This document shows, one piece after another, positions 28,868 through 32,923 of a stretch of 64,000 nt of DNA. How positions within the stretch are numbered: position 1 is the stretch's first letter; each line of letters begins with the position of its first letter. The translations under genes and the position numbers were made by a program. A model generated the notes under the pieces. The model did not search any database. It was not told the DNA's origin and worked only from the letters and a program-made list of their open reading frames with translations. The DNA comes from Bacillaceae bacterium IKA-2 (GTDB lineage: Bacteria > Bacillota > Bacilli > Bacillales > Anaerobacillaceae): the NCBI GenBank assembly GCA_031761875.1, contig CP134492.1:806001-870000 (forward strand), given 5' to 3'.

Positions 28868-30238
28868 TTAATGAGGTAAATAATCTAATAAGGCTGTTGC
28901 AATTGAAAAGTAAATAATTAGGCCTAATAAATCATTAATCGTTGTAATAAATGGACCTGATGCGACTGCTGGGTCAATTTTAAGCTTATTAATAATAAGG
29001 GGAACTGTGGCCCCGACCATAGTGGATATACTTAACGTAACAAATAATGATAAACCGACGATGGCTGCTAACCATAAACCTCCTTCAGGATATAACAAAG
29101 GAATTAATACCAATAAAGTTAAGGCGCAAATTATACCAAGTATAATTCCGGTACCAAACTCGCGACGTATCATTTTACTAGTTGTTAAATTATCAAGGGT
29201 ACCCAATGCTAGACTACGAACGACAACTGCTAATGCCTGAGTGCCGGTATTACCAGCAGAACCCATAATTAAAGGGATAAACACAGACAGTAAAATCACT
29301 TCTGATAGCGTATCTTCAAACTGTCCGATAACTCCAGCTGTAATGAGGCCTAAAAACATTAGGATGATGATCCAAGGAGAACGTTTTTTTGCGGCAGCAA
29401 AAGCGGTTATATTCGTATCAATAGAGCCTCTAACTGCAAACATCTCTCCAAAATCTTCTTCTGTTTCTTCTTCGACAACGTCCATGATGTCATCGAAAGT
29501 AATGATACCTACAAGCATTCCTTGGGCTGTTACGGGAATAGCTAAAAAATCATATTTTCTCATAATTTTTGCTACTTCCTCTTGGTCGGTATGTGTTTCA
29601 ACTGATTTAACTCGAGAAAGCATAACGTCTTCAACTTTCTCTTCTAATTGTGCGACTATTAAGTCTCTCAGTGAAACAACCCCGACTAACTTAAATTGTT
29701 CATCAATCACATATAGATAATAAATAGTTTCAGCTTCAGGAGCTTCAAGACGTAGTCTGTTCATAACTTTAATAACGGTCTCAGATGAAGATACAGAGAT
29801 AAACTCAGTTGTCATGATCGCCCCTGCTGTTTGATCATCATATTTGAGTAGATGAATAACTTCTTGGGCCTCTTCTTTGTCCATTTTACTTAAATAAAGT
29901 TCTTTCTTATTTTCGGGTAATTCACCTAAAAAATCTGCAATGTCGTCATAGGACATATTGTTAATAACGTCGATTGCATAGTTTTGCTGTAATTCAGCAA
30001 TGTATTGTTTTTGCTTAGAAAGTTCTAAGCCTTCGAAAATTTCAGCGAATTCTTCTGGTGTGACATATTTATAAATAAGACCTCTTTGCTTTTTTGATAC
30101 AGAATTAAGAATGTCAATTTGGTCCGTCGGGTGTAACTCAAAAAATAACTCTCGAAAATCCGAGTTATTTTGATCAATAATCGTTTGGATTACTTGCATT
30201 GTAAATCCTTCACGGTTTTCTTGGTCTAATTTTACCAT
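28868..30238 (-). CDS. mgtE: Magnesium transporter MgtE
   Basis: 456-aa Mg2+ channel. The N-terminal helical superfamily domain (residues ~20-130, with SYDDIADFLGELP) is followed by paired CBS domains (~135-255) with the linker MTTEFISVSSSETV and ending in DDIMDVVEEETEEDFGEM. The C-terminal five-helix pore domain contains PLIMGSAGNTGTQALAVVVRSLALG and SGPFITTINDLLGLIIYF, the ion-selectivity and gate segments. Start ATG 30238 follows AAGGAGGGT. Expression is controlled by the upstream M-box. Confidence 0.97.
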   Translation of the reverse strand: MVKLDQENREGFTMQVIQTIIDQNNSDFRELFFELHPTDQIDILNSVSKKQRGLIYKYVTPEEFAEIFEGLELSKQKQYIAELQQNYAIDVINNMSYDDIADFLGELPENKKELYLSKMDKEEAQEVIHLLKYDDQTAGAIMTTEFISVSSSETVIKVMNRLRLEAPEAETIYYLYVIDEQFKLVGVVSLRDLIVAQLEEKVEDVMLSRVKSVETHTDQEEVAKIMRKYDFLAIPVTAQGMLVGIITFDDIMDVVEEETEEDFGEMFAVRGSIDTNITAFAAAKKRSPWIIILMFLGLITAGVIGQFEDTLSEVILLSVFIPLIMGSAGNTGTQALAVVVRSLALGTLDNLTTSKMIRREFGTGIILGIICALTLLVLIPLLYPEGGLWLAAIVGLSLFVTLSISTMVGATVPLIINKLKIDPAVASGPFITTINDLLGLIIYFSIATALLDYLPH

Positions 30239-30449: not shown

Positions 30450-30660
30450 CATTGCTAATCATAAGATTAACAATAAACACTCAAGTCCTACTATTCATAG
30501 AGTTCTAGCACTGTGCCACTGTGCGCAAATAGGTATAATCCAGTGCATTAAAAACCAACTTATGTAGAAAGTTTCTGTTGCCAATTGCCTCGGTGGACAT
30601 TTTTGGAAAGCAACGTCTCGCCAGCACCAGAGCTTCACCTAACGTAGGTATTTAGTTTTC
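30450..30660 (-). promoter_or_regulatory. M-box (ykoK leader) magnesium riboswitch
   Basis: Reading the minus strand, the conserved elements appear in order: GTTAGGTGAAGCTC near 30645, GACGTTGCTTTCC and GGCAATTGGCAACAGAAA in the middle, and GTGGCACAGTGCTAGAACTC near 30515. These are the hallmark stretches of the Mg2+-sensing M-box aptamer, followed by an intrinsic terminator. M-box RNAs switch off Mg2+ transporters when Mg2+ is plentiful. Confidence 0.93.
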
Positions 30661-30673
30661 TTTAACAATATAG

Positions 30674-30702
30674 ACGATACAGAAATATCTTGAGACTGTC
30701 AA
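30674..30702 (-). promoter_or_regulatory. Promoter of the M-box/mgtE transcript
   Basis: Minus strand TTGACA (30702-30697), 17-nt spacer, TATCGT (30679-30674), just upstream of the M-box. Confidence 0.65.
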
Positions 30703-30767
30703 TGGCCTTTCCAAAAGAGGTTCTATATTACAAGAAAATTAAAAATTTTTTAAAACAAAGAAAAAAC

Positions 30768-30817
30768 TTGAAAACAGCAGCTTAAAAAGGGTATAATGAT
30801 ATTGAAAGTTATTCTCA
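30768..30817 (+). promoter_or_regulatory. SigA-type promoter with overlapping Fur-like box
   Basis: TTGAAA at 30768, 18-nt spacer, TATAAT at 30792. Just downstream, TGAAAGTTATTCTCA (30803-30817) agrees with the 7-1-7 Fur box (TGATAATnATTATCA) at 12 of 14 defined positions. A repressor bound there would block transcription start, suggesting iron control of the small gene that follows. Fur binding is inferred. Confidence 0.55.
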
Positions 30818-30835
30818 ATTAAGGGAGGGTTATTG

Positions 30836-30997
30836 ATGGTATATGCACTGATCTTCTTAACAATAGTAAGTTATTTTTTAATCGTAATCCGTATTTTTCA
30901 TGGTATTAATGATCAAAAAACTGTTACATTATTCTCTAAATTAATAAATACATTCAAATCAAAAAAATATGACCCATTAAATTCTCATTCCAAGTAG
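30836..30997 (+). CDS. Small single-pass membrane protein, possibly iron-regulated
   Basis: 53-aa ORF below the usual size cut-off. ATG 30836 follows AAGGGAGGG at good spacing and a clear promoter, and the stop is followed immediately by an intrinsic terminator, so it is a complete one-gene unit. One N-terminal hydrophobic helix (YALIFLTIVSYFLIVIRIF), then a polar basic tail (INTFKSKKYDP). I do not recognise the family. A Fur-like box overlaps its promoter region, and a HesB-like gene lies 140 bp downstream. Confidence 0.72.
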   Translation: MVYALIFLTIVSYFLIVIRIFHGINDQKTVTLFSKLINTFKSKKYDPLNSHSK

Positions 30998-31031
30998 GCC
31001 GGCTAATGAAGCTTGCCTACTGCTTTTTTTT
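30993..31031 (+). terminator. Terminator after the small membrane protein gene
   Basis: AAGTAGGC and GCCTACT pair around CGGCTAATGAAGCTT, followed by nine T. Confidence 0.85.
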
Positions 31032-31136
31032 TGAAAGATTATAGTTCGATTCTCTTGTTAATAATAGTATAAATTGGTACGATAATCTTGAGTTATCTAT
31101 AAGGTAGTTCGCTAAAGATATAGTAGAGGTGAAAAA

Positions 31137-31418
31137 ATGAAAATTACAGATGAGGCAAAAAAGTTTATTGGAGAAATTTTAGAGCAAAACAATGCAAATG
31201 GGATTAAAGTTATTTTTGCTGGCATGGGTTGAGGCGGTCCTAAATTAGGATTGTCTCTGGATGAGGCAACAGATGAAGATATTATTGAAACAATTAATGG
31301 TGTTCAAGTAGCTTTTGAAAAAAGTATTATTGATCAAACAGAAGAACTAGCACTTGATTTTCAAGAAACCGCGGAAGGCTCTGGTCTTGTCATGGTTGGA
31401 GCAAATGAGTGTTGTTAA
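31137..31418 (+). CDS. HesB/IscA-like selenoprotein (in-frame TGA read as Sec32)
   Basis: 93 aa if TGA 31230-31232 is read as selenocysteine. ATG 31137 follows AGAGGTG. The frame starts MKITDEAKKFIGEILEQ, reaches FAGMG, meets TGA, then continues in the same frame as GGPKLGLSLDEATDED through to ANECC and TAA. HesB/IscA-type proteins have a cysteine at the TGA position (GCGGPxLGL). Conservation on both sides argues against decay. From memory, a HesB-like selenoprotein family with Sec at this site is known (TIGR01911). The C-terminal CC supplies further metal/Fe-S ligands. A stem-loop starts at the TGA. Role inferred as Fe-S or redox related. No sel genes are in this window. Confidence 0.88.
31231..31257 (+). 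promoter_or_regulatory. Putative bacterial SECIS stem-loop
   Basis: Starting at the second base of the TGA, GAGGCGGTCC can form ten consecutive pairs (three of them G-U) with GGATTGTCTC around loop TAAATTA. Position is right for a bacterial SECIS element read by SelB, though the apical loop lacks the G usually present. Confidence 0.5.
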
Positions 31419-31428
31419 GGGGTTAACA

Positions 31429-31463
31429 GAAAGGACTGACTTAGTAAATAGGTCAGTCCTTTC
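31429..31463 (+). terminator. Terminator after the HesB-like selenoprotein gene
   Basis: GAAAGGACTGAC with complement GTCAGTCCTTTC, loop TTAGTAAATAG; also looks bidirectional. Confidence 0.85.
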
Positions 31464-31678
31464 AAATTCATTGATTCTAGAAAGTGTACGTAATAGAATG
31501 AATTTCATTCAATATAGAATTTAAAGAACCTTACATATAAAACTAGAAAACATTAGAATTTAAATGAATAAAAAATAAACGTGGGTAAATAGACTTTAGG
31601 AACTTTCACATTTTTCTTAGTATGTAAATATTTCTAAAATAAATAAAAATATATATGTAATTTTCTAAACATTTAGAA

Positions 31679-31728
31679 TATAATACAGAGGTAGTTTGTT
31701 TTTGGATTAATTGAGCGATTGCTCAATT
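31679..31728 (+). promoter_or_regulatory. Promoter region and palindromic operator of the leucine degradation operon
   Basis: A TATAAT box at 31679 is followed 24 nt later by a perfect palindrome AATTGAGC-GATT-GCTCAATT (31709-31728). The size and form suit a dimeric TetR-family repressor of fatty/branched-chain acyl-CoA metabolism, located where it would block elongation or initiation. The regulator is not encoded in this window. Confidence 0.6.
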
Positions 31729-31744
31729 GTTGTTATCGTAAGTT

Positions 31745-31758
31745 TGAAAGCACTTACA
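31745..31758 (+). promoter_or_regulatory. cre-like site upstream of acyl-CoA dehydrogenase gene
   Basis: TGAAAGCACTTACA matches TGWAARCGYTWNCW at all positions but one. It lies downstream of the promoter, so CcpA could act as roadblock. Inferred. Confidence 0.45.
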
Positions 31759-31780
31759 TTAAATAAGGGGGAATAAAAAA

Positions 31781-32923
31781 ATGAATTTTGAATTAACAAA
31801 AGAGCAATTAATGATTAAAGAAATGGTAAGAGATTTTGCGAAAAATGAAATTGCACCCTTTGCTGCAGAAATAGATAAAACGGAAAGATTTCCTATTGAG
31901 ACATTTAAAAAAATGGGTGAGTTGGGATTAATGGGGATTCCTTTTCCTGAAGAATATGGTGGTTCAGGTGGAGATGCAATCTCTTACATTTTAGCAGTTG
32001 AAGAAATTGGTAAGGCGTGTGGAAGTACAGGTCTAAGCTATGCGGCAGCAATTTCTCTAGGGGCAAGTCCACTTTATTACTTTGGAACTGAAGAACAAAA
32101 ACAAGAATACTTAATTCCGTTAGCTTCTGGAAAATCTCTAGGTGCTTTTGGTTTAACTGAACCTAACGCTGGTTCAGATGCTGGTGGGACACAAACAAAG
32201 GCAGTCGTTGATGGTGATGATTTTGTTATCAATGGAGAAAAATGTTGGATTACGAACGCCGGATTCGCTCGTTCAGTGATCGTTACAGCAGTGACAGGAA
32301 AAGATGATCGAGGTAAAAAAGTTATTTCAGCGATTATTGTGCCAACAGATACACCGGGTTTCAAAATTAATAGTAACTATGAAAAGATGGGTGTTCGTGG
32401 CTCAAATACATCGGAGTTAGTTTTAGAAGATGTAAGAGTACCTAGAACAAACTTATTAGGAGATCCTGACAAAGGATTTGGACAATTTTTATATACATTA
32501 GATGGGGGAAGAATTTCAATTGCTTCTCTTGCGGTAGGTATTGCCCAAGCGGCATTTGAAGCGGCATTAAAATATTCCCAAGAAAGAAAGCAGTTTGGAA
32601 AGACTCTTTCAAGTTTTCAAGCAATTCAATTTAAACTTGCAGACATGGCTATGGAAATTGAGTTAGCTAGAAATATGGTTTTAAAAGCTGCTTGGTTAAA
32701 AGACCAAGATAAACCATTTAAAAAGGAAGCTGCATACGCAAAATTATTTGCATCTGAAATGGCGACACGAGCTTGTAATCAAGCAATTCAGATCCATGGT
32801 GGCTACGGGTATATGCGTGAATACCAGGTTGAACGTTACTTAAGAGATGCAAAGTTAATGGAAATTGGTGAAGGAACATCAGAAATTCAAAGGATTGTTA
32901 TTGCTCGTCAACTTCTTTCATAA
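31781..32923 (+). CDS. Acyl-CoA dehydrogenase (isovaleryl-CoA dehydrogenase role likely)
   Basis: 380-aa FAD enzyme, full length for the family. Signatures are [14 protein letters not shown] (about residues 127-140), CWITNAG, and near the C-terminus [20 protein letters not shown] and EGTSEIQR. The Glu in EGTSE is the position of the catalytic base in short-chain acyl-CoA dehydrogenases; isovaleryl enzymes usually use another Glu. So the isovaleryl-CoA assignment rests on operon context (B. subtilis yngJ equivalent). ATG follows AAGGGGGAA. First gene of the operon. Confidence 0.9.

Follow-up and report, generated by a model that had tools for sequence, protein, structure and literature searches.

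Gene and reading frame

The window, which is the whole stretch of 64,000 nt that was analysed, carries on its forward strand a small HesB/IscA-like frame that very probably encodes a genuine selenoprotein. The gene, its signals, and the codons of interest are as follows.

31125..31131, + strand: Shine-Dalgarno-like AGAGGTG, 5 nt before the ATG
31137..31418, + strand: predicted gene for a HesB/IscA-like selenoprotein, 93 codons and a TAA stop
31230..31232, + strand: TGA at codon 32, predicted to encode Sec, in the place that the first ligand Cys takes in the IscA fold
31251..31269, + strand: SECIS-like hairpin TTGTCTC-TGGAT-GAGGCAA, 7/7 pairs, -7.5 kcal/mol when folded alone
31251-31257, 31258-31262, and 31263-31269, + strand: first arm, loop UGGAU, and second arm of this hairpin
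31407..31415, + strand: C-terminal Glu-Cys-Cys codons (Cys92, Cys93), roughly where IscA has its two C-terminal ligands
31429..31463, + strand: 15-bp hairpin after the stop, terminator-like, without a T-run, -24.0 kcal/mol

From ATG 31137 to TAA 31416-31418 the only interruption of the frame is the TGA, and the initial annotation had both the coordinates and the reading through to the TAA right. Translation of the window DNA with TGA as Sec gives a product of 93 aa that contains GMG-U-GGPKLGLSLDE and ends in ANECC. The proposal that the gene has its own ribosome-binding site fits the Shine-Dalgarno-like AGAGGTG, with a loose Shine-Dalgarno pattern also upstream of 34/42 homologues. The terminator claimed for the gene is the 15-bp hairpin after the stop; a terminator scan does not list this hairpin since it lacks the T-run which the scan requires. 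A promoter scan of 30500-31900 returned eight sigma-70-like sites vs 6.8 expected, and no promoter is claimed.

Contrary to the initial annotation, the TGA is followed by a possible start codon: TTG 31251, in frame, opens an ORF of 55 aa, and hence a gene caller could report a truncated piece of the gene. This TTG also lends something to the view that termination at the UGA is dominant, which would leave a 31-aa peptide and a remainder either vestigial or begun at TTG 31251. Past the TGA, however, the sequence is conserved at the protein level and makes up most of the fold, the Cys homologues are uninterrupted, and TTG 31251 is itself the first codon of a hairpin arm; dominant termination is very improbable.

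Just upstream of the gene lies a 53-aa ORF (30836-30997, +) with one membrane-like stretch by eye, which is found in the loci of 6/6 other same-genus genomes at 58-67% identity. Further upstream, an M-box (magnesium) riboswitch match at 30482-30653 on the minus strand scores 42.1 bits, just below the gathering score of 44, and precedes a 456-aa gene (28868-30238) that is presumably MgtE-like.

Conservation of the TGA codon and its distribution

The TGA stands at codon 32 in 7/7 genomes of the genus when that of the window is counted (the match in G002 starts only at residue 7). A lone TGA within an otherwise ordinary frame is what a pseudogene or a sequencing error would produce by making a stop of a Cys codon in this strain, and the initial annotation had itself allowed for such an error. 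Recurrence of the TGA at the same codon in six other same-genus genomes speaks against it, as does the TGA form in 40/150 relatives. Moreover, change after the TGA is mostly synonymous: when the gene is compared with six copies from the genus, the third codon position is the most changed in 6/6 comparisons, and synonymous codon changes exceed the others in 5/6, the exception being L034 with 11 vs 14. The hairpin is conserved as well, and a pseudogene or an error is hardly credible.

The initial annotation placed the TGA at the conserved Cys of HesB/IscA proteins and proposed an alignment of homologues to learn whether Cys or TGA occupies the codon. In alignment A1, which comprises 32 of 42 homologue sequences chosen for variety, column 32 is Sec or Cys in 32/32 rows and never Trp. 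The placement is confirmed by this column and by the alignment of Sec32 with the cysteine of IscA-like PDB chains (see below). The nearest named relative, Anaerobacillus alkalilacustris, is 80% identical. Its gene shares its entire DNA sequence with that of a same-genus genome (L031 and L058), which puts the window in Anaerobacillus. A natural Cys homologue occurs, for instance, in Neobacillus drentensis (L062).

Homologues are found in 101/150 relatives at E 0.001, and the best 27 matches each contain one TGA. Matches had to reach 50 bits to be divided into TGA and Cys forms, and those that did cover 65/150 genomes; among the other 85, 33 have selB. Within this division selB is present in 40/40 genomes with the TGA form and in 3/25 of those with Cys forms only (25/150 relatives), an association with a Fisher P of 1.9e-14 when the kinship of the genomes is ignored. 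The three genomes that have selB with Cys forms only are a counter-point to the Sec reading. A wider sample of the phylum gave 63 matches at E 1e-10, spread over 54/398 genomes; 55 of these matches have one TGA and eight have none, and the HesB-like kind is therefore widespread.

Readthrough of UGA occurs in bacilli as a general matter, and the codon might be read as Trp or Cys, or passed by unspecific readthrough, instead of being decoded as Sec; nothing in this background is specific to the gene. The presence of selB in every genome with the TGA form and the absence of Trp from column 32 argue against such recoding. In addition, TGA is a normal stop in the same genome, where it ends 10/48 large ORFs of the window, and it is the ordinary stop in three of the 32 TGA-form genes themselves. 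Recoding of this other kind is extremely improbable. Pseudogene, sequencing error, termination, and other recoding are all rejected, each on the grounds given for it above.

As to the sequence sets, L031 was left out for having the same DNA as L058. Six distant Cys-form or Cys-rich loci (L070-L075) were left out of the hairpin, alignment, and tree sets, and the ten Cys forms referred to below exclude them.

The SECIS-like hairpin

The SECIS-like hairpin begins 18 nt past the TGA, and 25 nt separate the TGA from its loop. Published rules for bSECIS elements call for a loop of 3-9 nt, a stem of 4-16 bp, a G in the first two loop positions, a distance of 16-37 nt from UGA to loop, and an MFE of at most -7.5 (PMC13188914). 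The hairpin at 31251-31269 falls within these rules, with a borderline energy of exactly -7.5 kcal/mol.

The element follows the TGA form of the gene closely. CTG at the loop Leu codon and six or seven of the seven pairs are found in 32/32 TGA-form sequences (30 distinct), with the loop TGGAT in 29 and TGGAA in three, whereas the hairpin is missing from 10/10 Cys homologues (CTG in 0/10, a mean of 2.1 pairs). In three neighbouring genes CTG accounts for 2/109 Leu codons. The two strands of the window contain 2487 TGA triplets, and that of codon 32 is the only one with a 7-bp hairpin and a TGGAN loop 15-24 nt behind it; two triplets qualify when any NGGNN loop is allowed.

Covariation was assessed in two sets chosen for variety, namely A2 (16 of the 32 TGA forms) and A3 (25 of 41, being the A2 sixteen plus nine members of the third family described below). 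The hairpin cells are paired at 94.6% in the 16 sequences and at 92.6% in the 25. In both sets 0/500 shuffles reached the observed values for cells paired, two-sided change, and covariation score, and the number of pair types was reached in 34 of 500 shuffles for the 16-sequence set and in 16 of 500 for the 25-sequence set. With the third family added, two-sided change occurs at 5/7 pairs, and the covariation score is 0.496, where shuffles give 0.171 and slid partners no more than 0.135. The arms covary despite amino-acid change. For example, in L041 a change of Glu to Ala goes together with GCT to GCG, and in L069 a change of Glu to Gly goes together with TCT to TCC. When synonymous codons were shuffled within each of six sequences, P was 0.003-0.006 in four of them, 0.037 in L011, and 0.11 in L076, which counts only moderately against chance. 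Hence, the case for the hairpin rests on the covariation and on the contrast with the Cys forms. An invariant UGGA loop with arms that stay paired through amino-acid changes provides a clean natural data set for recognition by Gram-positive SelB.

When 31233-31280 is folded freely, the SECIS hairpin loses to a longer competing stem (-14.6 kcal/mol) that starts directly behind the TGA, and in the free fold of 31233-31290 the closing pair of the hairpin has a probability of only 0.07. When the 48 nt after the TGA are folded freely, the conserved hairpin is not obtained for several sequences, that of the window included. The closing-pair probability rises to 0.996 once the first six nt after the TGA are omitted from the fold. 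A ribosome positioned at the TGA would presumably remove the competing stem, as the first six nt after the TGA would be occupied.

Selenocysteine machinery and other predicted selenoprotein genes of the genome

A search of the genome for selA, selB, selC (tRNA-Sec), and selD, which the initial annotation had proposed, found all four in the single contig of 4,424,890 bp. In the profile search selA (558.9 bits), selB (336.9), and selD (394.7) each score above the curated cut-off, and the tRNA-Sec (58.7 bits) lies above the Rfam gathering score and has the anticodon TCA according to ARAGORN. The genes selA, selD, and selB are grouped in about 7.3 kb, with the tRNA-Sec about 11 kb further. The initial annotation had implied that Sec decoding is rare here, but it is common: selB is above the cut-off in 76/150 relatives and tRNA-Sec in 75/150, and the two agree in 149/150 genomes.

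Other genes with an in-frame TGA, outside the window, include the following.

C1:2448136-2449065: selD gene, motif GKAGUGCK around the TGA
C1:3632932-3633849: selD gene, motif GSGUACK around the TGA
C1:2040750: second HesB-like gene

Two FdhA-like genes of the genome likewise have an in-frame TGA, in a UH motif; GxGU(G/A)CK in selD and UH in FdhA are both motifs that we take to be Sec sites. For the families looked for, the genome thus contains seven predicted selenoprotein genes, which are three HesB-like, two selD, and two FdhA-like. One of the FdhA genes (C1:1348308-1350329, L089, with the UH motif) has a predicted hairpin GTTGCC-GGTCT-GGCAAC after its TGA. Given a GGUCU loop in FdhA and UGGAU-type loops in the HesB genes, one SelB would serve both. 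As of 2006, three selenoproteins in all were counted for Bacillales (PMC1794560).

The frame, the conservation of its TGA, the covarying hairpin, and the sel genes together form the basis, at the level of sequence, on which Sec is in all likelihood inserted at codon 32. A well-supported selenoprotein gene is thereby added to Anaerobacillus. The main text of a 2025 paper on selenate reduction by Anaerobacillus makes no mention of selenocysteine, selA, or selB (PMC11944866). In the open-access literature searched, no report was found of selenocysteine in Anaerobacillus, nor one that brings together selenocysteine, selB, and formate dehydrogenase for Bacillus and Bacillaceae.

A third HesB-like family

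The genome encodes one more HesB-like protein, which also belongs outside the window.

C1:1882624-1882893: third paralogue (L076), with an in-frame TGA

Together with L077-L084, L098, and L100-L105 it makes up a third family, which in a tree of 51 sequences and 93 columns is a fully supported clade apart from the other HesB-like proteins. A search of 397 genomes of the order returned 16 matches of at least 63 bits in 16 genomes; each has one TGA, and no Cys form of the family is among them. Below these, no match exceeds 41 bits, and the 12 loci read among them (L106-L117) are members of the main family. The hairpin is at the same place in 16/16 members, with five to seven of the seven pairs and a TGGA loop.

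The surroundings of the Sec are nearly fixed (GYN..S.UG.S.FK.TLD), the C-terminal cysteines are not conserved, and the nine aligned members share no invariant Cys column besides the Sec column. NF038090 recognises the family weakly, with 23-25 bits for two members. These features suggest that Sec-decoding Bacillales may hold a possibly undescribed, Sec-only family derived from the HesB fold, in which the carrier role has been lost and the lone Sec serves another task, a reading to which slightly less than an even chance is given. If it is true, searches that demand Cys homologues would miss this family.

Predicted fold and possible role of the protein

An AlphaFold2 model built from 32 sequences, with Cys replacing Sec, has a pLDDT of 91; the last block, which is the C-terminal tail, has a pLDDT of 54 and is uncertain. 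The best PDB match by Foldseek is E. coli IscA (1r94), with an E value of 2.2e-6, a TM score of 0.81, and 24% identity, and in two IscA-like PDB chains the residue aligned with Sec32 is the cysteine of the GCSG motif. Cys92 and Cys93 are present in at least 90% of the 32 rows and are plausibly equivalent to the two C-terminal IscA ligands, although IscA has the motif CGC where the protein encoded here has CC.

The gene very probably encodes a 93-aa selenoprotein of the IscA fold. The UGA at codon 32 would be decoded as selenocysteine by Sec-tRNA(UCA) delivered by SelB, and SelB would be held at the site by the hairpin at 31251-31269. In such a protein Sec32, Cys92, and Cys93 may form the three-ligand site of an A-type carrier, for iron or an Fe-S cluster, and the protein would then be a selenolate-containing carrier. 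The carrier role is drawn from the predicted IscA-like fold and the ligand positions and is put forward tentatively, with a little less than an even chance.

The same selenoprotein could have another job, as a selenol/thiol redox enzyme or in the handling of selenium or a metal, which would affect its role and not its status as a selenoprotein. A review holds that most uncharacterised selenoproteins serve redox functions (PMC13188914), and a CC pair occupies the Sec site in 9/10 Cys forms examined. The predicted IscA fold and the retention of all three ligand positions weigh against another job of this kind. So does the neighbourhood of the gene, where the only neighbours shared with same-genus loci, covered mostly to 1.5 kb on each side, are the 53-aa ORF and a transporter-like gene. 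Such a job is a substantial possibility, but somewhat below even. The function of HesB-like selenoproteins can be tested directly, as Sec forms and Cys forms occur in pairs among close relatives.

Relation to known families

HesB-like selenoproteins are already known from surveys (PMC13188914; PMC5029168), and the gene is a new member of that kind. Eleven were counted in 2006 (PMC1794560), and 90 proteins in 86 organisms in 2016 (PMC5029168). A HesB-like selenoprotein of Methanococcus maripaludis came to light through mutagenesis together with 75Se labelling; nitrogen fixation is unimpaired in a mutant, according to an unpublished observation cited there that counts against the carrier role, and the function of these proteins is described as open (PMC11097638). 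The motif UxGP, listed for HesB-like selenoproteins (PMC13188914), appears as UGGP in the protein of the window.

The initial annotation had named TIGR01911 as the family. The model exists and lies in the right neighbourhood, but the score is 55.9 bits with Cys and 53.7 with X at the Sec position, vs a cut-off of 66.35, and there is no formal match. The protein resembles this family in its similar length (the model has 92 positions, matched from 6 to 90), in the Sec of its UGGP, and in the coexistence of Sec and Cys forms. The best NCBIfam match is NF038090 (IscA_HesB_Se), which covers nearly the full length at 57.1 bits with Cys and 50.8 with X at the Sec position, vs a cut-off of 85. Similarly, 10/10 further sequences, of which eight are from the main Bacillales family and two from the third, score below the cut-offs of both models.

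The IscA/SufA/ErpA carriers (PF01521; PDB 1r94, 1s98, 1x0g) share with the protein the predicted fold and a first ligand Cys that aligns with Sec32. They differ in having Cys where it has Sec, and its PF01521 score of 20.2 remains below the gathering score of 26.3. As its scores lie below the cut-offs of TIGR01911, NF038090, and PF01521, the protein is, judged by sequence, part of a divergent branch that the known HesB-like selenoproteins have in Bacillales and not a formal member of any of these models.
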